Translations under genes and position numbers: made by a program
Assembly: GCA_030640865.1 (NCBI GenBank)
Contig: DAOWIP010000216.1
Coordinates: 1-13,128, forward strand
Direction: 5' to 3'
DNA length: 13,128 nt
From: Sedimentisphaerales bacterium
Lineage (GTDB): Bacteria > Planctomycetota > Phycisphaerae > Sedimentisphaerales > SM23-30
Part shown: piece after piece, positions 2,723 to 13,084 of the stretch
How the letters are laid out: each line of letters begins with the position of its first letter
How positions within the stretch are numbered: position 1 is the first letter of the stretch
The notes under the pieces: generated by a model
What the model saw: the letters and a program-made list of their open reading frames with translations, nothing else
What the model was told of the DNA's origin: nothing
The model's database searches: none

Positions 2723-2752
2723 TCAGACAGCATGGGCTGAAGCCCATCCTAC
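2723..2752 (-). repeat. REP-like hairpin, copy 1 (feoA-feoB gap)
   Basis: On the minus strand this reads GTAG, then GATGGGC, TTCA, GCCCAT, then GCTGTCTGA: a 6-bp ATGGGC/GCCCAT stem with a 4-nt loop. It matches copy 2 (3023-3052) at 28 of 30 positions. A GTAG tetranucleotide 5' of a hairpin is the known hallmark of REP elements recognised by RAYT (TnpA-REP) transposases; no such transposase is in the window. The TAG of the GTAG is the feoA stop codon, and the element ends 16 nt before the feoB ATG, so it may influence message stability or feoB translation. Confidence 0.75.
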
Positions 2753-2985
2753 ATGTCTTCAATAATTATGTCGCGGGCTTCCCCGTGTCGCAGGCTTATA
2801 TGGTATCCTTTAACGATATACTCAGCCGGGTCAGCCAGCGGCGCCAGTTTTACTTTTTCGATTATTTCGCCTTTAATCAGCCCCATCTCCAGCAGTCGTT
2901 TTTTAAACGGACTTTTGCCGCGGATTCGCACGATTCTACCCTTGCCTCCATCCACAAGCTCGCATAAAGATATTTCCTTATTCAT
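2749..2985 (-). CDS. feoA: Ferrous iron transport protein A (FeoA)
   Basis: FeoA is a small cytoplasmic SH3-like protein needed for FeoB-dependent Fe2+ uptake, thought to bind FeoB. From the ATG at 2985 it is 78 residues, close to the family norm of about 75. It shows the core pattern GKGRIVRIRG, then RLLEMGLIKGE, a variable strand, and ISLRHGEARDIIIEDM. A longer reading would begin at the ATG at 3033, but that ATG lies inside REP-like copy 2 and adds 16 residues unlike FeoA. The 2985 start also has GCGAG just upstream, so it is preferred. The stop codon lies in REP-like copy 1. It is the second gene of the operon, 85 bp after the regulator, whose own C-terminal domain has the same fold signature. 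Confidence 0.95.
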   Translation of the reverse strand: MNKEISLCELVDGGKGRIVRIRGKSPFKKRLLEMGLIKGEIIEKVKLAPLADPAEYIVKGYHISLRHGEARDIIIEDM

Positions 2986-3022
2986 ATTTTCTCGCTTGGG
3001 AGTTGAATCCGCCCATCGAAAA

Positions 3023-3052
3023 TCAGACGGCATGGGCTAAAGCCCATCCTAC
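3023..3052 (-). repeat. REP-like hairpin, copy 2 (regulator-feoA gap)
   Basis: Same orientation and layout as copy 1: GTAG, GATGGGC, TTTA, GCCCAT, GCCGTCTGA on the minus strand. It differs from copy 1 at two positions, one of them in the loop. It lies between the regulator stop (3071) and the feoA start (2985), exactly 300 bp from copy 1, so feoA is bracketed by two direct copies. Confidence 0.75.
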
Positions 3053-3070: not shown

Positions 3071-4372
3071 TTATGGTGCGGCTGTCCGGTCGGCAGTATG
3101 GCGATGACGGCGACGGCGATGGTGTGGGGAAAGCTCGGTGGTATCAGGCGGAACAGGTACTATCCTGATCTTTTTGGACGTGGCCCGATCGAGCATCAAT
3201 CGAGTCGAACCGGCCACAACAATAATACTATCTCCGCAACAATCGTCACTAATTACCTGGACGAGAGTACCGGGGTTCAGCCCCATATCAGATATTCTGT
3301 TTTTCGTTTGCCTGTCGGCCACGATTCGTACTATCTCGACCTTCTCATCGGCAAGGCATTCGTTCAGATTACGGGTTTTGGCCTCCAGCTTGATACAATC
3401 GTGGCATACGCCGTAAATATTGAGCGAGTGCCTGAGCATACGGAAGTCGGCCCGACGGGCGTTTTCTTCCTGCAGCCGTTCAATCCTCGGATCGAAGAAT
3501 TCGATTATCGCTCCACATTTGACACAAAACATATGGTCGTGATGCGATTCCGGGTGCAGGTGCTCATAATATATCTGGTCTTTGAACGAAAAGGCACGGG
3601 CAATCTTGTGTTCGCACAGGATTCCCAGAACCCTTTCGGTTGCCTCCCTTGTTACATTGGGATCGATCTTGTGGGTATATTTATACAGACTATCCAGGGT
3701 TTGATGCTTTTCCGTGGACAGGAATGTGCCGGCTATCGTCAGTTCCAGGGGAGATAAGGGATGTCCCCCTTCTTTCTGAACCAGCTTGAGTCTGGTGAGG
3801 ATTTTCTTGTCACGGTCCTTGGTAACTTTTGGCAGGGCCTGATTGTCGGATTCCCGCGGTGATGGAACGGCGGCCTTGTCCTGCAAGTGATTGATACATT
3901 CGGAAATGCACTGGGAGCAATTTTCCTGCAACCGGCCCTGCTGACAGAATACGCCGAACCCCTTCATCCATTCGCGGCCGGCACGGGGACAATTTTCCAG
4001 AAAACCCTCAAACTGTTTCATTCGCTGGAGCACTTCTTTATCAAGGACATGCTCCATACGACAGGCATTAGCCTCGGCGACTTTTTCATTGACGGCCAAT
4101 ACATCAGTCAGGAAGCCTTTTATTGCCTGATGTCGCTGAGCCACACGACGGCCGAACTTACGGCCCTTTTCGGTCAGGGTAATGGCTTCATAAGGTGTAT
4201 AATTGATCAGTCCCTTTTTCGATAATTGGTTCAGTGCCCAGGACACGCTGCTTTTACCGACCCCAAGATGCTCGGCGATATGGTTGGCATGGGCCATAGG
4301 CTTGTCCTGACAGAGCTGGTAAATAGCCTCGATATAGTCTTCCAAACTGGGACTTAACGTATTTTCTGCCAT
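3071..4372 (-). CDS. Fused DtxR-Fur-FeoA-domain metal-dependent regulator
   Basis: Probable iron-responsive DNA-binding repressor of the feo operon, 433 residues. Residues 1-125 look like DtxR/MntR: EDYIEAIYQL (11-20), a winged helix with SSVSWALNQLSKKGLI (41-56), and a dimerization/metal region with H81 and ACRMEHVL (103-110). C104, E107 and H108 align with the DtxR primary site C102, E105, H106; D12 aligns with MntR D8. Residues 126-165 carry C128, C143, C152, C155 and C159. Residues about 190-330 are Fur-like: HHDHMFCVKCG (277-287), E291, RHSLNIYGVCHDC (314-326), giving two CxxC pairs for structural zinc. The expected Fur recognition helix ATVYR is replaced by EATER. Residues about 338-407 match FeoA (RISDMGLNPGTLV), followed by a His/Arg-rich tail. 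Ordinary DtxR proteins are 140-230 residues and Fur about 140. It is the first gene of the operon. No clear Shine-Dalgarno site precedes the ATG. Domain calls are by eye; the in vivo metal and DNA targets are unknown. Confidence 0.88.
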   Translation of the reverse strand: MAENTLSPSLEDYIEAIYQLCQDKPMAHANHIAEHLGVGKSSVSWALNQLSKKGLINYTPYEAITLTEKGRKFGRRVAQRHQAIKGFLTDVLAVNEKVAEANACRMEHVLDKEVLQRMKQFEGFLENCPRAGREWMKGFGVFCQQGRLQENCSQCISECINHLQDKAAVPSPRESDNQALPKVTKDRDKKILTRLKLVQKEGGHPLSPLELTIAGTFLSTEKHQTLDSLYKYTHKIDPNVTREATERVLGILCEHKIARAFSFKDQIYYEHLHPESHHDHMFCVKCGAIIEFFDPRIERLQEENARRADFRMLRHSLNIYGVCHDCIKLEAKTRNLNECLADEKVEIVRIVADRQTKNRISDMGLNPGTLVQVISDDCCGDSIIVVAGSTRLMLDRATSKKIRIVPVPPDTTELSPHHRRRRHRHTADRTAAP

Positions 4373-4451
4373 AAGGTTATGTTCTTTTTGTTAGCGTTGC
4401 GATTCATCGCGTGGCCCGGAATCAATAAATGGGTATTGACAACACACATAA

Positions 4452-4480
4452 ATTGTACGAAGTGTCGAACTTTTTGTCAA
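4452..4480 (-). promoter_or_regulatory. Promoter of the regulator-feoA-feoB operon
   Basis: On the minus strand a perfect TTGACA (4475-4480) is followed after exactly 17 nt by TACAAT (4452-4457, 5 of 6). The transcript would begin near 4445, with a leader of about 70 nt before the regulator ATG at 4372. The box quality predicts a strong promoter that needs repression, which fits the first gene encoding a repressor. Confidence 0.75.
4455..4470. promoter_or_regulatory. Candidate operator palindrome in the feo promoter
   Basis: GTACGA AGTG TCGAAC is an imperfect inverted repeat: two 6-nt arms with one mismatch around 4 nt. It overlaps the -10 box and half the spacer, a position where a bound repressor would block RNA polymerase. 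It does not resemble the classical Fur box or the corynebacterial DtxR box. It is the best candidate site for the fused regulator, but this is inference from position only. Confidence 0.4.
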
Positions 4481-4684: not shown

Positions 4685-4690
4685 TTCGTG

Positions 4691-7600
4691 ATGAGAAAGA
4701 CAGCTTACTTTATCATTTCAATGGTTTTACTTTGTCCGTGCTTTACTTTCGCGGCAGGTGGTAATCTGCCCGGCAGCGGGACTGAGGCTGATCCGTACCG
4801 AATCGAAGACCGGGCGGATTTTGACGCGTTTGCCGACCCGGCCAACGCATCGACTTATTGGTCCGGTGGTATTCATACAAAACTGACGTGTGATCTTGAT
4901 CTGTCGGGTGATGTATTCGAGACGGCTGTTATTGCACCGGACACGGATTCCACCAGCGGCGGTTTTCAGGGAACAAGTTTTACCGGCAAATTTGACGGCG
5001 ACGACCATACGATTAGTAATCTGACCATAGATACCGGCGGAGCGAACAATGATTATCTTGGCCTGTTCGGCAAAATTGGCCCAAGTGGCCAGGTAAGAAA
5101 CCTCGGCCTCGAAGACGGCGCAGTAACTGGTGGATTTTATGACTTCCATCTTGGCGGCCTGGTAGGAGCAAACCGCGGCAGTATCACGAACTGCTACGCC
5201 ACCTGCGTAGTTACTGGTAGAGATTGTAGCTACTATCTTGGCGGCCTGGTGGGATACAGCTATGAGGGCAGCAGCATCTCGAACTGCTACGCCACCGGCG
5301 CAGTTACTGGTATAGCGAATTGCGGATATCTTGGTGGTTTGGTAGGGTGTAGTGATGGCAACATCTCGAACTGCTATTCCACCGGTGATGTCAGCGGTAA
5401 TGACTATATCGGCGGTTTGGTGGGAAAAAACCGTGGAATTGTCATGGACTGCTATTCTACCGGTGATGTCAGCGGTCATGAACGTGTCGGCGGCTTGGTG
5501 GGGTTTATAGTGGGATATGATGAATGCTGTATTGTGTCGAATTGTTTCTGGGACACTGATACGCAGACCCACGGCATAACCAGGAGTATTGGTGAAGCCT
5601 ACGGCGCCGTTACCAATGTGGAAGGGCTTACTACCGGCCAAATGCAGACAAAGTGTACGTTTACCTATGTCGGCTGGGATTTTACTGGTGAGACAGTTAA
5701 CGGTATAGAAGATTTGTGGCGAATGCCGCATGGGGGCGGCTATCCGATCTTGTCGTGGCAACGGGACATCCCCGGCGATTTTGCCGGCTCTTATGGCGTG
5801 GATTTGATTGATTATTCGTACTTTTCAGGGTATTGGATGAATGATAATTGCAGCGAGGTCAACGACTACTGCGACGGTACGGATATTGACTTCTCCGGAG
5901 CGGTGGATATAGCGGATTTAGAGATATTATTTGTCCATTGGCTCAAGGGGGAAGAGATAGCGGAATGCAGGTACGGCGGGGGGACGGGTGATCCGTGCGA
6001 ACCGTATTTGATTTCCGATCCATGTCATTTGGACTACCTCGGCTTTTACCCGTGCGACTGGGGCAAGAGCTTCCGGCTGACGGCGGATATTGATATGAGT
6101 GGCTACAGCTACGAAAAGGCCCTGATTGCACCTGACAGGTTTTCCAGCGACGGCTTTCAGGGAACAAGTTTTACCGGCGAATTTGACGGCGACGGCCATG
6201 TCATCAGTAACCTGACCATAGATACCAGCGGAGCGGACAATGATTATCTCGGACTGTTCGGCCAAATCGACCCAGGCGGCCAAGTAAGAAAACTCGGCCT
6301 CGAAAACGGCGCAGTCACCGGTGCATATGGAAGCAGGTATCTTGGCGGCCTTGTGGGGAAAAACTACGGCAGTCTCATTAACTGCTACGCCACCGGCGAT
6401 GTCATTGGTAATTCCTCTGTCGGTGGCCTGGTGGGAAACAACTACAATGGCAGTATCATAAACTGCTATGCCACCAGCGCAGTCACCAGTGTAAAGCATG
6501 GCTGGTGTCTTGGCGGCCTTGTGGGATACAACTACACAGGCAGTATCATAGACTGCTACGCCATCGGTGCCGTCAACATTGGAGATGGAGGCTACTATCT
6601 TGGCGGCTTGGTAGGATCAAGAGACAGTGGCGATATTACGGGCTGTTTCTGGGATGGTGATACATCGGGGTTGTGCTATAGCGCCGGCGGATGGAAAAAG
6701 AGTACCACAGAGATGATGAGTGCGGAAACCTATATCGGCTGGAATGACGGTTCATGGGTCATAGATGAAGGGAATGACTATCCTCACCTGTCATGGGAGA
6801 AGGCGGCCCAGGGATTGCCGAACATCACCACAGATTACCCCGAACGGACATATCCCGGCAACGGGCAAGACCAGCCCTTCGAACTGGATAGCAGCGAGGA
6901 CATTGTCTGTATGTCTTTGCGACAAGTGGATTGGGACAAGAATTTTATCGTAACCAGCGATATCGATATGTCTTCTGTAACGGATTATTATCCAGTAAGT
7001 GGTTTTTTCGGATATATAGATGGGTCAGGCCAAAGGATTATGAACCTGACCGTTGAACCTGATGTAATCGGAAATAGATGCTTGCTTGGTTTCATAGGCA
7101 AGCTTAGCTCTTCCGGTCGTATAGATAACCTTGTTCTGGAAAATGTCAATATAAACGGCAAGGATTATTCATACTATCTTGGCGGCCTGGTGGGAAAAAA
7201 CTACGGGAGTGTTACGGACTGCTATGCCACCAGCGTAGTCACCAGTGGAGATTATGGCGGGTGTCTTGGCGGCCTGATGGGGAAAAACTACGGGAGTGTT
7301 AAGGATTGCTATACCACCGGCGTAGTCACCAGTGGAGATTATGGCGGGGGCCTTGGCGGCCTGGTGGGATATAATATGGATGGCAGTGTATCGGACTGTT
7401 ATTCAACCGGCAGTGTCAGCGGTAATGACTATCTCGGCGGCCTGGTGGGGTATAATATGGATGGCAGTGTATCGGACTGCTATTCAACCGGCAGTGTCAG
7501 CGGTGATGACTGTGTCGGTGGCTTGGTTGGGCATAATAGGTACAGTAGCGGCAACATATCGAACTGCTATTCTACCGGCGATGTCAGCGGTGTTTCCAAT

Positions 7601-8038
7601 GTCGGCGGCATGGTGGGAAAAAATTATCGTGGTAGTGTGTCGAACTGCTTCTGGGACACTGAGACACAGACCCACGGCGTAACCGAAAGTGTTGGCCAAA
7701 ACGATGGCGGTACCGTTACTAATGTGGCCGGGCTTACTACCGGCCTAATGCAGACAGAAAGCACATTTACCTCTGCCGGCTGGGACTTTTCAGAAGGAGA
7801 TGGTGATCCTGCTGATTGGAAGATGCCTTTAACATACGGTTATCCGCAACTCACGTGGGAGCTTGATCTGATCGCGGATATTGTACCGGATGGTATTGTG
7901 AATCTCGTCGATTTTTCCAAAATGGCTGAATTCTGGCTGGGCTATGCGCCGGAAGTTGACATCTACCATGACGGCAAGGTTGACATTCAGGATTTATCAA
8001 TCCTTGCCGAGAATTGGTTGAGTTTGATAGTCCCGTAG
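4691..8038 (+). CDS. Secreted GLUG-repeat protein with dockerin-like EF-hand pairs
   Basis: Large exported protein, 1115 residues, probably cell-surface or extracellular; exact role unknown. It begins with a signal peptide (MRKTAYFIISMVLLCPCFTF), with a likely cut after FAA. Three related modules follow. Each opens with a strand-rich segment such as GTSFTGKFDGDDHTISNLTI, resembling right-handed beta-helix proteins, then carries GLUG repeats of the type GGLVGKNYGSV.DCYATG.V. I count 15: 5, 4 and 6 per module. The repeat runs end in NCFWDT-type units. Calcium-loop pairs like type I dockerins occur between modules 1 and 2 (about 358-418, DIDFSGAVDIAD) and at the C-terminus (about 1061-1115, DIYHDGKVDIQD then LSILAENWL). 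Such endings are common in Phycisphaerae secreted proteins. GLUG repeats are known in bacterial adhesins and IgA-protease-like proteins. No catalytic domain, sortase signal or transmembrane anchor is visible. Adhesion or polysaccharide binding is a guess. Confidence 0.88.
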   Translation: MRKTAYFIISMVLLCPCFTFAAGGNLPGSGTEADPYRIEDRADFDAFADPANASTYWSGGIHTKLTCDLDLSGDVFETAVIAPDTDSTSGGFQGTSFTGKFDGDDHTISNLTIDTGGANNDYLGLFGKIGPSGQVRNLGLEDGAVTGGFYDFHLGGLVGANRGSITNCYATCVVTGRDCSYYLGGLVGYSYEGSSISNCYATGAVTGIANCGYLGGLVGCSDGNISNCYSTGDVSGNDYIGGLVGKNRGIVMDCYSTGDVSGHERVGGLVGFIVGYDECCIVSNCFWDTDTQTHGITRSIGEAYGAVTNVEGLTTGQMQTKCTFTYVGWDFTGETVNGIEDLWRMPHGGGYPILSWQRDIPGDFAGSYGVDLIDYSYFSGYWMNDNCSEVNDYCDGTDIDFSGAVDIADLEILFVHWLKGEEIAECRYGGGTGDPCEPYLISDPCHLDYLGFYPCDWGKSFRLTADIDMSGYSYEKALIAPDRFSSDGFQGTSFTGEFDGDGHVISNLTIDTSGADNDYLGLFGQIDPGGQVRKLGLENGAVTGAYGSRYLGGLVGKNYGSLINCYATGDVIGNSSVGGLVGNNYNGSIINCYATSAVTSVKHGWCLGGLVGYNYTGSIIDCYAIGAVNIGDGGYYLGGLVGSRDSGDITGCFWDGDTSGLCYSAGGWKKSTTEMMSAETYIGWNDGSWVIDEGNDYPHLSWEKAAQGLPNITTDYPERTYPGNGQDQPFELDSSEDIVCMSLRQVDWDKNFIVTSDIDMSSVTDYYPVSGFFGYIDGSGQRIMNLTVEPDVIGNRCLLGFIGKLSSSGRIDNLVLENVNINGKDYSYYLGGLVGKNYGSVTDCYATSVVTSGDYGGCLGGLMGKNYGSVKDCYTTGVVTSGDYGGGLGGLVGYNMDGSVSDCYSTGSVSGNDYLGGLVGYNMDGSVSDCYSTGSVSGDDCVGGLVGHNRYSSGNISNCYSTGDVSGVSNVGGMVGKNYRGSVSNCFWDTETQTHGVTESVGQNDGGTVTNVAGLTTGLMQTESTFTSAGWDFSEGDGDPADWKMPLTYGYPQLTWELDLIADIVPDGIVNLVDFSKMAEFWLGYAPEVDIYHDGKVDIQDLSILAENWLSLIVP
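7181..7516 (+). repeat. In-frame tandem GLUG repeats, recently duplicated
   Basis: Four consecutive units each start at GGCGGCCTG: 7181, 7268, 7355 and 7436. The first two are 87 nt long and nearly identical to each other; the last two are 81 nt and nearly identical over their first 60-odd bases. All periods are multiples of three, so unit gain or loss would keep the frame. The similarity at DNA level, including silent positions, points to recent duplication or conversion. Confidence 0.85.
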
Positions 8039-8596: not shown

Positions 8597-9925
8597 CTAA
8601 TTATTTGGGTCGAACGGTTTGGGTGGGATGGAGATTTGATCGTTATCTTCGAGATAAGGGTTTGTCGTGGGGTTGTTAATTATCTCTGTTGGCGGGATGG
8701 CTTGGTTTGTGGTCGGCGGTTCAGGTTGTTCCAGGGTTTGCAGAACCAGAACCAGTGCGATCATTCGTGCCGGCTGGGACTGGCTGTCTTTATTTTTGGT
8801 TTGGTCTTTCTGGTCAGGCATATCGGTGGGTGTGGGAGGTATCGGGTGGTCGGTTCGCTCGTAGAGCGTTGTCGGGGACGGTTCGTTGGCGGCAATACGT
8901 GGGACATCTTCATAGTGAACATCGTTAACATCGGAGAAAGGAGTTGCGTCAATCGGTGGCGCCAGCGGTTGCAGGCCGGTAAGTTCAGGTTCTACCTGGG
9001 CGAATAACCGGAGCAGTTCCGGTGTGTCATCATCATCCTGACGGTCAAAATCGCCCTGGTGGTCCCCGGCAGTAAAACGCAGAGCCTGGGCAATTTGTAT
9101 TAACGGATTGGCCTCGCCGGCCAGTACCAGGGCTTGCTCTTCGGTGGCGTTTTGGACCATAATTTCACGACCCGCAGTCTCGTCGGTTACGACAATATCA
9201 ATACGATTTTCAGTATTCTCAAGATTCTGGAAGAATTGTCTGAACTTGTCCACTGGGCAGACGAGTGAGTAACGGCAGCTAATCAGGTCGGAATATTCGC
9301 GAAAGACATTATCGATCTGTAAATCCTGGAACATTTGGTCCAGACGCATGCTAAGTGTCAGCACATCGGGAGTATTGACTACCATACTCAACTGGCTCAA
9401 ATTTACCTGGAGCAGGGCGGTTTTCAAGGCATCGGTGTCATTTCTGCTGGAATCAGCGGTTGAAAACAACTCTTTTGAGGTTGACGTTTCGTCCGGAGCA
9501 ATTGCGACGGCCTCCGGCTGAATAATGGAGTCCGAACCGCCCGGCGATTGGCTCAGAACATTATAGACAATGGTAACAATGGCACCAGCCAATATGAGCA
9601 CGGCAGCGGCGGTTAGGAACCGGCGAAGGCGTAAATGGTTTCGGCCGGCCGTTTCGGCCAGGACATCGCCCTGATCGAGCAGCAGGTCCCGTTCAAGCTG
9701 TTGAATGACTCCTTCGGCAAGATCGTCCGGAGCGGCAACCCGCGGCAGTTCTCTGATACTGCCGGACACCCGGCGAAGCTCATCGAGTAATTGCCGAAGC
9801 TGTGGGTCATCGGCAAGCTGCCGTTCAATCTTTTCCGTCAGACCTGGTGAAAGCTCGCCGTCAAGATAGGCGCTGAGGGTCTCAACGAGTTTGGTTTTAT
9901 TATGACGCATGTCTTTATCAGCCAT
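8597..9925 (-). CDS. Membrane-anchored anti-sigma factor (predicted)
   Basis: Probable partner that holds the neighbouring ECF sigma factor inactive at the membrane, 442 residues. The N-terminal segment has the layout of an anti-sigma domain: LSAYLDGELSPGLTEKIERQ (17-36), then helices to about residue 80. The zinc-type HxxxCxxC motif is absent, so it would be a zinc-less ZAS-like domain. One membrane helix follows (about 103-124, FLTAAAVLILAGAIVTIV). The outer part of about 315 residues has a folded-looking section (about 160-290) and a Pro/Thr/Asn-rich tail, probably disordered. No family for the outer part is recognised; it could be the sensor. CAGGGA sits 3 nt before the ATG at 9925. The gene is 138 bp downstream of the sigma gene, looser than the usual sigma/anti-sigma coupling. 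The assignment rests on the N-terminal pattern, the single membrane helix and the neighbour. Confidence 0.75.
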   Translation of the reverse strand: MADKDMRHNKTKLVETLSAYLDGELSPGLTEKIERQLADDPQLRQLLDELRRVSGSIRELPRVAAPDDLAEGVIQQLERDLLLDQGDVLAETAGRNHLRLRRFLTAAAVLILAGAIVTIVYNVLSQSPGGSDSIIQPEAVAIAPDETSTSKELFSTADSSRNDTDALKTALLQVNLSQLSMVVNTPDVLTLSMRLDQMFQDLQIDNVFREYSDLISCRYSLVCPVDKFRQFFQNLENTENRIDIVVTDETAGREIMVQNATEEQALVLAGEANPLIQIAQALRFTAGDHQGDFDRQDDDDTPELLRLFAQVEPELTGLQPLAPPIDATPFSDVNDVHYEDVPRIAANEPSPTTLYERTDHPIPPTPTDMPDQKDQTKNKDSQSQPARMIALVLVLQTLEQPEPPTTNQAIPPTEIINNPTTNPYLEDNDQISIPPKPFDPNN

Positions 9926-10063: not shown

Positions 10064-10720
10064 TTAGAGCAGTTGTTCACGCAGGGTACCGCGAGCCCGT
10101 GAGAGTCGGCTTTTTACTGTGCCTACGGGCAATTCCAAAATCTGCGCGATTTGGCCATAGTGCAACTGCTCAATATCACGCAGCACTACGACCGCGCGAG
10201 CGTCCGGCTCGAGTGTTTCCATCGCTGTCAGGACACGATCATAATTTTCCTTAATCTGCGCCTGTTTATCGGGCGAATACTCACCTGACTGTGCCATTGC
10301 CGCCAGATGGTCCGCCTGACGGCCTATGCCGTCGTGTCCGCTTTGCAGCGAAGTAATATGCACCCGTCGGCTTCGCCGATGGTGGTTGATGCACAAATTC
10401 ATACCGATTCGATACAGCCAGGTAAAAAAACCGGCACTGCCGCGAAACTTCTTCAGACCCTTCATAGCCCGATAAAATGTCTCTTGGGTAATTTCCAGAG
10501 CATCATCGCGGTTGCCGACCATCCGAGAGACAGCGTTGAAAAGCCGATCCTGGTATCTCTCGACTAATTGGCCAAAGGCAGCCATATTGCCCATACGACA
10601 GCGAGCGATCAGGGCCTCATCCTCGGCAAGCTCCGAGTCATAACTCACTTCGTTACTTACCTTTGGACAATTGGTGGCGTAATCGGTTCCACCAGGTTGA
10701 TAACTTTTTATCTTTTTCAT
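10064..10720 (-). CDS. ECF-type RNA polymerase sigma factor
   Basis: Extracytoplasmic-function (sigma70 group 4) factor that directs RNA polymerase to stress or envelope promoters. Numbered from the GTG at 10729, region 2 spans about residues 38-120 (DALEITQETFYRAMKGLKKF, then GFFTWLYRIGMNLCINHHRR), covering -10 recognition and melting. Region 4 spans about 163-220 (LEPDARAVVVLRDIEQLHY, then LPVGTVKSRLSRARGTLREQ), with the -35-binding helix-turn-helix. Region 3 is absent, as expected. AGGTG lies 6 nt before the ATG at 10720, so that start (218 residues) is preferred over the GTG at 10729, which overlaps the ribosome site. The anti-sigma gene follows on the same strand. No specific ECF group can be assigned by eye. 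Confidence 0.93.
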   Translation of the reverse strand: MKKIKSYQPGGTDYATNCPKVSNEVSYDSELAEDEALIARCRMGNMAAFGQLVERYQDRLFNAVSRMVGNRDDALEITQETFYRAMKGLKKFRGSAGFFTWLYRIGMNLCINHHRRSRRVHITSLQSGHDGIGRQADHLAAMAQSGEYSPDKQAQIKENYDRVLTAMETLEPDARAVVVLRDIEQLHYGQIAQILELPVGTVKSRLSRARGTLREQLL

Positions 10721-10740
10721 CAAAAACACCTATATATACC

Positions 10741-10861: not shown

Positions 10862-12304
10862 ATGAAAAAAAACACCACCCATAATGTGTATGAGAATCCG
10901 TTGATCAGCCGTTACAGTTCAAATGAGATGTTGGGAATCTTTTCGCCTCGGTTCAAATTCGGCACGTGGCGGCGACTGTGGCTGGCGCTGGCGGAGAGCC
11001 AGGCCGAGTTGGGTTTGCCTGTTACCACAAGACAGTTGGCACAGATGCGGCGCAATTTAGACGAGATCGATTTCAACCGCGCAGCCCGTTACGAAAAGAA
11101 GTTTCGCCATGATGTAATGGCGCATGTTCACACCTTCGGCGATGCCGCTCCACTGGCACGACCGATCATCCACCTCGGTGCGACAAGCGCATTTGTAGGC
11201 GATAATACCGACCTGATCCAGATGCGCAAAGGATTGGAACTGATCCGGGCACGACTGCTGCGAATAATCGAATTGCTTGGGCGGTTCGCAAGGCGTTATC
11301 GGAAACTGGCAACATTGGGCTATACCCATTTTCAGCCGGCTCAGCTTACTACGGCAGGTAAAAGGGCTACCCTCTGGTGCTATGATTTTACGCTCGACCT
11401 GGAAGAAATCCATTACCGAATCAATTCAATTTGCTTCCGTGGAGTAAAAGGTACAACAGGGACGCAAGCCTCTTTTCTGAAACTGTTCAACGGCAATCAT
11501 AAAAAAGTTGCTCGGCTCGAAAAGATGGTCGCGTCCAAAATGGGTTTTACAAAAACATCGCCCGTTTCAGGTCAGACGTATAATCGTAAAATTGATGCCA
11601 ATGTGCTGGCGAGCCTCTGTGGGATCGCGCAATCGGCTCACAAGATCAGTAACGATGTACGGCTACTGGCCCACTTGAAACAAATCGAGGAACCTTTCGA
11701 AAAAAGCCAGATCGGCTCTTCCGCGATGGCCTATAAGCGTAATCCCATGCGAAGCGAGCGTATTACGAGTCTGTCACGGTATGTAATCAGCCTGGCCTCG
11801 TCGCCGGCTATGACCGCGGCCGAGCAGTGGTTCGAACGAACACTGGACGATTCGGCGAATAAACGTTTGGCAGTGGCCGAGGCCTTTCTGGCTGTTGACT
11901 CGATTCTCTGCATTTTGGCCAACGTAGTGGATGGGCTGGTTGTGTATCCGAAGGTGATTGCCGCGGCAATTCAGGCGGAACTGCCGTTTATGGCCACGGA
12001 GAATATTATTATGGCCGCGGTCAATGCCGGCGGCGACCGTCAGCAGTTGCATGAGGCGGTTCGTACACACAGTATGGCCGCAGCGGCCGAGGTTAAACAG
12101 CACGGCCGGGCTAACGATCTGATAAAAAGACTGAAAAATGATCCGGCATTCGCAAAGGTTGATTTCAAAAACGTGCTCAAGGCAGAACATTATATCGGCA
12201 GATCGCCCGAGCAGGTGGACGAGTTCCTCCGTGAGGTTGTGGGGCCAATCAAACGTAAGTTCAGAAAATACGCCCTGGCGGTGGATATGGAGTTGCAGGT
12301 TTGA
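10862..12304 (+). CDS. purB: Adenylosuccinate lyase
   Basis: PurB removes fumarate from SAICAR and from adenylosuccinate, two steps of purine and AMP synthesis, in the cytoplasm. The 480 residues fit the fumarase/aspartase superfamily. Visible signatures are RHDVMAHVHTFG (82-93), HLGATSAFVGDNTD (104-117), GYTHFQPAQLTT (153-164) with the catalytic His at 156, and the family loop GSSAMAYKRNPMRSE (285-299), whose Ser 287 is the expected catalytic base. The loop wording resembles the animal-type enzyme (SSAMPYKRNPMRSE in human ADSL). The start fits the family opening YENPLISRYSS; an in-frame TGA lies at 10835-10837 and no other start lies between. It is divergent from the sigma gene and 108 bp before pyrE on the same strand, so the two may be co-transcribed. 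Confidence 0.96.
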   Translation: MKKNTTHNVYENPLISRYSSNEMLGIFSPRFKFGTWRRLWLALAESQAELGLPVTTRQLAQMRRNLDEIDFNRAARYEKKFRHDVMAHVHTFGDAAPLARPIIHLGATSAFVGDNTDLIQMRKGLELIRARLLRIIELLGRFARRYRKLATLGYTHFQPAQLTTAGKRATLWCYDFTLDLEEIHYRINSICFRGVKGTTGTQASFLKLFNGNHKKVARLEKMVASKMGFTKTSPVSGQTYNRKIDANVLASLCGIAQSAHKISNDVRLLAHLKQIEEPFEKSQIGSSAMAYKRNPMRSERITSLSRYVISLASSPAMTAAEQWFERTLDDSANKRLAVAEAFLAVDSILCILANVVDGLVVYPKVIAAAIQAELPFMATENIIMAAVNAGGDRQQLHEAVRTHSMAAAAEVKQHGRANDLIKRLKNDPAFAKVDFKNVLKAEHYIGRSPEQVDEFLREVVGPIKRKFRKYALAVDMELQV

Positions 12305-12382: not shown

Positions 12383-12412
12383 ATGACCAAATCAGTGGGA
12401 GCACAACCGAAA

Positions 12413-13084
12413 ATGCAGCAGTATCAAACGAATTTTATCGAGTTTCTGGTGAGGTCGGAAGTGTTGACCTTCGGTGATTTTGTTACGAAGAGCGGCCGGC
12501 AGACGCCATATTTTATAAATACGGGCAAGTATCGTATGGGTAATCAGCTTGCCCAATTAGGTTGCTTCTATGCGGAGGCAATCCTGCGATGCTTCGGGCC
12601 GGATATTGATAATCTGTACGGGCCGGCCTACAAAGGGATTCCACTGGCAGTTACAACGGCAATCGCGCTGGGCAGTGAACATAAACTGGATGTTTCAGTA
12701 ACCTATAACCGTAAAGAAATAAAAGATCATGGAGAAAAAGGTGTGCTGATCGGACAGCAGTATAACGGATCAGAACAGGTAATAATTATCGAAGACGTCA
12801 TTACGGCCGGTACGAGCGTACGCGAAACCCTGGAACTGCTGAAGAAACAGGGTAATCCACAAATAAAAGGTGTTATCGTCTCGGTAGATCGGATGGAACG
12901 CGGCCAGGGCAAACTATCGGCGATCCAGGAGATGAAAGAACAATTCAGTCTGCCGGTTTATTCCATAGTTACAGTCCGGGATATCATCGCACACCTGTAT
13001 AATCATCCACTGGACGGACGAATGTATATTGATGATGATATGAAATCCCGCATAGAAAGATATTTGACTCAATATGGCATTTAG
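12413..13084 (+). CDS. pyrE: Orotate phosphoribosyltransferase
   Basis: PyrE joins orotate to PRPP to make orotidine 5'-monophosphate, the fifth step of pyrimidine synthesis, in the cytoplasm. From the ATG at 12413 it is 223 residues. Visible are the N-terminal KSGRQTPYFINTG (26-38), the flexible catalytic loop YNRKEIKDHGEKG (98-110) with its lysines and histidine, and the PRPP-binding motif VIIIEDVITAGTS (123-135). The in-frame ATG at 12383 would add 10 residues. The 12413 start is preferred because family members typically begin near MxQYKxxFIEF; GTGGGAG 11 nt upstream is a poor but present ribosome site. The length resembles the longer clostridial-type enzymes more than E. coli PyrE (213). 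Confidence 0.95.
   Translation: MQQYQTNFIEFLVRSEVLTFGDFVTKSGRQTPYFINTGKYRMGNQLAQLGCFYAEAILRCFGPDIDNLYGPAYKGIPLAVTTAIALGSEHKLDVSVTYNRKEIKDHGEKGVLIGQQYNGSEQVIIIEDVITAGTSVRETLELLKKQGNPQIKGVIVSVDRMERGQGKLSAIQEMKEQFSLPVYSIVTVRDIIAHLYNHPLDGRMYIDDDMKSRIERYLTQYGI

Follow-up and report, generated by a model that had tools for sequence, protein, structure and literature searches.

A planctomycete regulator joining DtxR, Fur and FeoA domains ahead of feoA and feoB, with the metal ligands of its Fur part kept and the DNA contacts mostly lost

The stretch of DNA analysed here, referred to as the window, comprises 13,128 nucleotides of a Sedimentisphaerales contig. Its minus strand carries a regulator gene at positions 3071 to 4372, a single uninterrupted frame of 433 codons in which DtxR, Fur and FeoA domains all exceed the Pfam cut-offs. 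The three folds were also recovered by structure comparison of the fused protein with the PDB, where Foldseek ranked Fur, MntR and FeoA entries among the matches. An earlier, sequence-only reading of this DNA had proposed one frame with this domain order, and the Pfam and fold matches bear it out, including the middle segment, where the Pfam FUR profile scores above its cut-off and the Fur fold is matched. The predicted model of the whole protein has a pTM of 0.35, and its arrangement of domains deserves no trust. From the N terminus, the protein consists of a DtxR/MntR part with a winged helix and a metal-binding and dimerisation domain (residues 6 to 134, positions 3971 to 4357; Pfam, alignment and fold), a cysteine motif located by alignment and model (residues 128 to 159, positions 3896 to 3991), a Fur part (residues 186 to 332, positions 3377 to 3817; alignment, fold and residue comparison), an SH3-like FeoA domain (residues 335 to 405, positions 3158 to 3370; Pfam, fold and a FeoA tree) and a C-terminal tail delimited by alignment (positions 3074 to 3157).

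The cysteine motif, CPRAG..W..F..C...C..C...C (C128, C143, C152, C155 and C159), lies in the linker; each cysteine is present in 35 to 42 of 57 aligned fused proteins, and the region has low confidence in the predicted model. It is a possible metal or Fe-S site, judging from the spacing of its residues. The same motif ends the unfused DtxR protein of L180 and is found in DtxR-FeoA proteins such as that of L184. The Arg/His-rich tail carries an R..H.H motif in 55 of the 57 proteins. The window protein has a single FeoA domain and two of its aligned relatives (P0043 and P0046) have two, the regulator being additionally fused in these to a second, transporter-like FeoA domain.

Downstream on the same strand lie feoA (positions 2749 to 3033, supported by Pfam and related loci) and feoB, which encodes a ferrous iron permease (positions 565 to 2706; reading frame and Pfam). 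The open reading frame of feoA starts at 3033, and an inner ATG near 2985 would be an equally likely start. In agreement with the feo context first proposed for the regulator, every one of the nine fused loci that have long flanks (L005 to L013) has feoA and feoB behind the regulator in the same orientation. An OprB-type porin gene is found between regulator and feoA in L007 (6321-7616), L012 (6395-7675) and L013 (6399-7613). In L009 (4986-7604) an OprB-type porin shares one frame with the regulator, an arrangement that probably arose through a frameshift. A 22-base palindromic element, CATGGGCTnAAGCCCATCCTAC, occurs twice in the window, flanking feoA (2731-2752 and 3031-3052), where none is expected by chance; of 218 loci, 10 contain its 12-base core, eight of these overlapping the window itself. 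The remainder of the window encodes a 1116-residue protein that contains ten stretches of the GLUG motif and ends in a dockerin-like segment scoring below the cut-off (4688-8038), an ECF-type sigma factor (8597-9925) and, behind it, a probable anti-sigma protein whose start resembles zf-HC2, also below the cut-off (10064-10729), an adenylosuccinate-lyase-type protein (10862-12304) and a phosphoribosyltransferase-domain protein (12383-13084).

A search of 5.8 billion proteins returned 95 matches. The whole domain order is present in 56, which were aligned with the window protein (alignment A1, n=57); the remaining 39 lack at least one domain, and many of them are short or cut. At E <= 0.001, FUR, FeoA and Fe_dep_repr_C are detected in every member of A1 and Fe_dep_repress in 56. 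These 56 relatives come from several sources, are 37-93% identical and carry the same order within one frame, and in a tree their Fur domains group in a single clade (100/99, with the bootstrap not fully settled). We therefore reject the reading in which an assembly error or a frameshift joined two or three genes, to which we assign a negligible probability. Split neighbouring genes do exist (L179, L180), and the probable frameshift of L009 shows how a regulator can become joined to the next gene, but comparison with related genomes, proposed earlier as a way to expose a sequencing join, turned up proteins in one frame rather than separate ones. The fusion is real and lineage-wide, and constitutes a variant of the DtxR family. 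Homologues in Planctomycetota had been guessed at from the window alone; beside the 56 database relatives, whole copies are found in nine named records (L005 to L013), all metagenome assemblies labelled as Sedimentisphaerales, Phycisphaerae or Planctomycetota bacterium. We found no description of a DtxR-Fur-FeoA fusion in the open-licence literature, judged by title or abstract, and the sequence-only reading likewise knew of none.

Within the phylum, the distribution is narrow. An even draw of 392 genomes gave a full-length match in the window's own genome only. Among 161 genomes of the order, ten have a full or nearly full match and G394 has a copy cut by a contig end, which means that, G394 included, 11 of the 13 genomes in the window's own family have the domain order. 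None of the other 148 genomes of the order gave a full-length match, a count that cut or very diverged copies could escape. With P0054 as query, five of 397 genomes of the class were matched; all five matches, 37-61% identical, are fused proteins from the window's family. Since P0054 finds all its matches there and the cut copy of G394 resembles P0060, the clade P0052-P0060 probably belongs to the same family.

In several of these genomes, the fused gene stands alone. A single Fur match and a single DtxR match were obtained in the window's genome (86% complete), both within the fused gene, and the same is true of G399 (95% complete). Of the ten genomes of the family in which the fused gene is full or nearly full, five (G000, G397, G399, G401 and G402) have no other Fur match. 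None of the ten has a second DtxR match above 27 bits, with G397 and G400 each having one extra match that just reaches the cut-off of 26.

The DtxR part bears the marks of its family, an N-terminal winged helix, the Fe_dep_repr_C dimer domain and the primary-site ligands; D12, H81, C104, E107 and H108 are invariant in the 57 fused proteins. The primary site of PgMntR from Porphyromonas gingivalis is described as Asp19/Cys108/Glu111/His112, and that protein binds both Mn(II) and Fe(II) (PMC4805248). Because the fused proteins have the same Asp/Cys/Glu/His set, iron and manganese are both possible by analogy as the metal of the DtxR site.

For the Fur part, residues can be compared with those of MgFur from M. 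gryphiswaldense, in which site 1 is formed by H33, E81, H88, H90 and E101 and site 2 by H87, D89, E108 and H125 plus Q111 (PMC4506495). The reported contacts are K15, Y56 and R57, which read DNA, and R20 and T54, which touch the backbone; R57A abolishes DNA binding, and Y56A and K15A weaken it (PMC4506495). Transferring these numbers by motif via the C. jejuni Fur sequence places site 1 of the window protein at H223, E270, H278, H280 and E291, site 2 at H277, D279, E298 and H315, the structural Cys4 site at C283, C286, C323 and C326, and the DNA-contact equivalents at P205, E210, A244, E246 and R247. Alignments differ on the equivalent of E81, which falls on E270 (present in all 57 proteins) or on H271 (56 of 57). 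With Q111 left out, the two sites and the four cysteines give thirteen ligand positions; none of the 57 fused proteins has lost any of them, and among the 28 Fur-FeoA proteins each is kept in 27 or 28.

The DNA contacts have mostly been lost. As a reference we used 63 free-standing Furs, made up of 16 planctomycete frames and 47 database matches to a Fur-FeoA query, many of them near copies. The equivalent of R20 is Arg in all 63 and in none of the fused or Fur-FeoA proteins. That of T54 is Thr in 62 of 63 free-standing Furs against 4 of 57 fused and 0 of 28 Fur-FeoA proteins, and that of K15 is Lys or Arg in 62, 6 and 0, respectively. At the place of Y56, Tyr is found in 53 free-standing Furs and in neither of the other groups, and 37 of the 57 fused proteins have Glu or Asp. 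R57 is the contact most often retained, with Arg in 63 of 63 free-standing, 26 of 28 Fur-FeoA and 10 of 57 fused proteins, eight more fused proteins having Lys. When Lys or Arg was allowed at position 15 and Thr or Ser at position 54, fused proteins kept zero, one or two of the five contacts (38, 17 and 2 proteins), Fur-FeoA proteins zero or one (1 and 27) and free-standing Furs four or five (11 and 52). The window protein keeps one, R247 at the Arg57 place.

Conservation within A1 follows the same division. The metal-binding and dimer half of the Fur part is the best conserved of eight segments (3.41 bits), the DtxR recognition helix is better conserved than that of Fur (3.48 versus 2.40 bits), and His223 is invariant within an otherwise drifting Fur winged-helix half. 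The mean charge of the winged helix is -0.5 in the Fur part and +2.4 in free Furs, a weak argument because the DtxR winged helix itself averages -1.3. Compared by sequence with the PDB, the Fur part matches Fur proteins best, the H. pylori and C. jejuni Fur structures being among the matches. Since the DNA contacts are mostly lost and the metal ligands invariant, the Fur part is unlikely to be a second DNA-binding repressor; it may act like a Fur sensor, and we do not class it as a Fur repressor. The idea of one regulator with two kinds of metal site, put forward from the window alone, agrees with the invariant ligands of both parts, but Fur probably does not serve in it as a DNA-binding repressor.

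Upstream of the gene, on the minus strand, lies a sigma70-type promoter (4452-4480), with TTGACA at 4480-4475, a 17-nt spacer and TACAAT at 4457-4452; such matches alone are no more frequent than in shuffles (3 between 2600 and 4700, against a mean of 2.8). Inside it is an imperfect dyad, GTTCGACACTTCGTAC (4455-4470), which we propose as the operator from its conservation and matrix scores. An operator had been suspected within 4436-4480, and this candidate falls in that interval. The block AAAGTTnGrC..nYCkTACAAT, containing the imperfect dyad, is found in the promoters of 10 of 11 fused genes, with leave-one-out scores of 21.3-31.1 bits. Nine of the ten blocks stand behind a TTGACA-like box that precedes the TACAAT-like box by 16-18 bases; in L012 the dyad has no recognisable -35 box, and L006 is without the block. 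The dyad was first spotted by eye and then scored, an inverted-repeat scan of upstream regions having missed it.

The dyad is not confined to fused genes. A symmetrised matrix was run on 67 upstream regions of Fur-less DtxR genes (L014-L084 less four), counted from the start of the tblastn match; these regions are not independent, and many are desulfobacterial. No Fur-like frame was found in these loci at E <= 1e-8. Scores of at least 10 were obtained for 24 of the 67, and the other 43 score under 10; these loci also supplied 1647 control windows, of which 16 scored that high, as did 1.8% of 1340 shuffles. Several Fur-less dyads are clean, for example AAAGTTTGGTATGCCAAACTAT in the deltaproteobacterial L048. 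Its enrichment ahead of DtxR genes that lack Fur ties the dyad to the DtxR part rather than to Fur, and we propose it as a candidate operator type of the DtxR domain. Among other loci, the split operons L179 and L180 score 14.4 and 10.4 and L184 scores 9.8, with L181, L183 and L187 under 2. A pattern scan of the window's own genome for further sites was uninformative (172 matches against 305 for the reversed control); of five sites inspected, four lie within reading frames and one is intergenic. The intergenic one, GTTTGATTTATCAAAC, is a dyad of the operator type with perfect 7-base arms and precedes a small ORF in G000 (C317:5945-5960; L208).

Two genomes carry the components as separate genes. 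In G080, a 181-aa DtxR gene stops behind the same cysteine motif; a 239-aa Fur-FeoA gene begins 16 bases further on, and feoB comes next. In G011, the DtxR gene overlaps a Fur-FeoA gene (taken by its longest start), with feoA and feoB behind. The Fur parts of both group with the fused ones, apart from the 63 free-standing Furs (99/94; L179 on a long branch). DtxR genes and Fur-FeoA genes with damaged contacts thus adjoin, and their end-to-end joining would give the window protein. The sequence-only reading had instead suggested that Fur was inserted between DtxR and FeoA domains; from the neighbouring genes in these two genomes, insertion appears the less likely course. The tree is unrooted and would also accommodate the opposite direction, the splitting of a fused gene. 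Three further genome searches revealed no split pairs beyond the query genomes G080 and G241 (1 of 3, 1 of 9 and 1 of 29 genomes). G241 (81% complete) has a Fur-FeoA gene (L181 3153-3863) followed by feoA and feoB, with neither a DtxR gene nor a dyad adjoining; most Fur DNA contacts of its product are replaced, and DtxR matches elsewhere in the genome are only marginal (best 26.2 bits against a cut-off of 26). A FeoA-domain tree of 76 columns does not separate a closer kinship of the fused FeoA with Fur-FeoA proteins from one with DtxR-FeoA proteins. It does set the fused domain apart from the FeoA rows of transporter type, nine in number (100/100), a hint that the domain is of a regulator type.

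The closest parallels are DtxR/MntR/IdeR proteins with an SH3-like (FeoA) C-terminus, which share the winged helix, the metal-binding and dimer domain, the primary-site ligands and the FeoA-type domain, and whose Fur-less genes share the upstream dyad; the fused protein differs from them by a whole Fur domain and a Cys-rich linker between the dimer and FeoA domains. PgMntR has the same Asp-Cys-Glu-His mixed Fe/Mn primary site and is likewise an unusually long DtxR protein with an extra C-terminal domain that matters: without its last FeoA domain, DNA binding is reported to be abolished (PMC4805248). It has two FeoA domains whereas the window protein has one, no Fur is among the four domains named for it, and it did not bind the ferrous transporter promoter tested in that study (PMC4805248). 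With MgFur (PMC4506495) and the Furs of H. pylori and C. jejuni, the Fur part has in common its fold and the metal ligands at both sites and at the Cys4 site. It differs in having mostly lost the DNA-contact residues and in not being a free protein. The FeoA-FeoB protein of B. fragilis also has a FeoA domain fused to another Feo-related protein, but is described as a transport protein, whereas the window protein is a regulator (PMC8980893).

From the architecture, the operon, the ligand conservation, the loss of Fur contacts and the shared upstream dyad, we infer that the fused protein is a self-regulating DtxR-type repressor of regulator-feoA-feoB that responds to iron, with Fur as an added metal sensor coupled to the first. 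We put the probability of this reading at roughly 0.55. The DtxR part would be the only DNA reader: by analogy with known DtxR proteins, metal in the Asp12/Cys104/Glu107/His108 site would lead the DtxR dimer to bind the dyad between -35 and -10 and turn the operon off. The FeoA domain would correspond to the SH3-like domain of DtxR proteins, and the Fur part would no longer read DNA but supply a second metal sensor and a dimer module within the same chain. In Fur, the winged helix and the dimer half are connected through site 1, and metal bound at this site moves the winged helix onto DNA (PMC4506495). In the fused protein the winged helix is tied to the DtxR part by the linker, so a movement at site 1 could instead shift the tethered DtxR part and set the metal level at which it binds.

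Other roles for the Fur part fit the data less well. It could be a plain scaffold in which the Zn-Cys4 site and the dimer domain hold the dimer together, the other metal sites are structural and all sensing is left to DtxR. Free-standing Fur dimers form through the metal-binding and dimer half, and that half is strongly conserved here together with the Cys4 site; the invariance of the site 1 and site 2 ligands, His223 included, would be superfluous in a pure scaffold, and we find this role unlikely. We are more doubtful still of a two-headed repressor whose Fur part binds DNA through altered contacts, bridging or looping two operator types. The winged-helix fold is retained, and Arg stands at the Arg57 place in the window protein, some other fused proteins and most Fur-FeoA proteins. 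This DNA-binding role is nevertheless disfavoured by the loss of the other contacts, with Arg20 never kept and Tyr56 often replaced by an acidic residue, by the low winged-helix charge (weak, as noted), and by the fact that the sole conserved upstream element found is common to Fur-less DtxR genes.

Least probable of these roles is a Fur part that senses peroxide (as PerR), zinc (as Zur) or manganese and overrides an iron response of DtxR. The metal does differ among members of the Fur family, which leaves room for it. So does the DtxR site, which is of the mixed Fe/Mn type seen in PgMntR (PMC4805248). However, the operon is feo, and the best PDB sequence matches are Fur proteins. The residue at Asp104 of PerR decides between a PerR-type and a Fur-type protein, Glu being as in Fur (PMC4866751); the position that matches it by ligand order is Glu in all 57 fused proteins, which favours a Fur-type over a peroxide-type site and speaks against a PerR-type sensor.

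Several observations also weigh against the reading of a DtxR-type repressor with an added Fur sensor. Arg at the Arg57 place is kept in the window protein, as in nine others of the 57, with Lys in eight more; L006 lacks the dyad, and L012 has it with no clear -35 box. The 67 Fur-less genes are not independent and 43 score under 10, and the scan of the window's own genome found fewer sites than its reversed control. With a model pTM of 0.35, coupling between the sensors is purely a proposal. Finally, a Fur-FeoA gene heads feoA-feoB in G241, where DtxR matches are marginal, contrary to a need of Fur-FeoA proteins for DtxR.

What is new here is the combination of invariant Fur metal ligands with lost DNA contacts, the promoter dyad and the split DtxR/Fur-FeoA gene pairs. 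Fur and DtxR are the two classic, unrelated iron repressors of bacteria and have mostly been studied as alternatives. The surprising part is that, as the residue comparison suggests, a Fur domain has been kept for metal but not for DNA. We see about an even chance that a Fur fold that does not bind DNA acts here as an allosteric metal-sensing co-domain of a DtxR reader, so that two sensors would have to agree before the operator is bound, and that the pair also works unfused as DtxR and Fur-FeoA proteins encoded by neighbouring genes. The natural joining of Fur and DtxR makes the combination of two metal sensors into one decision directly testable, and the fused protein offers a test of whether a Fur domain can signal without contacting DNA. 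It also sets a trap for annotation, as a Fur match in these genomes may not mean a DNA-binding Fur. If our reading is true, the combined regulator would be, in some of these bacteria, the sole Fur and the sole DtxR of the cell.
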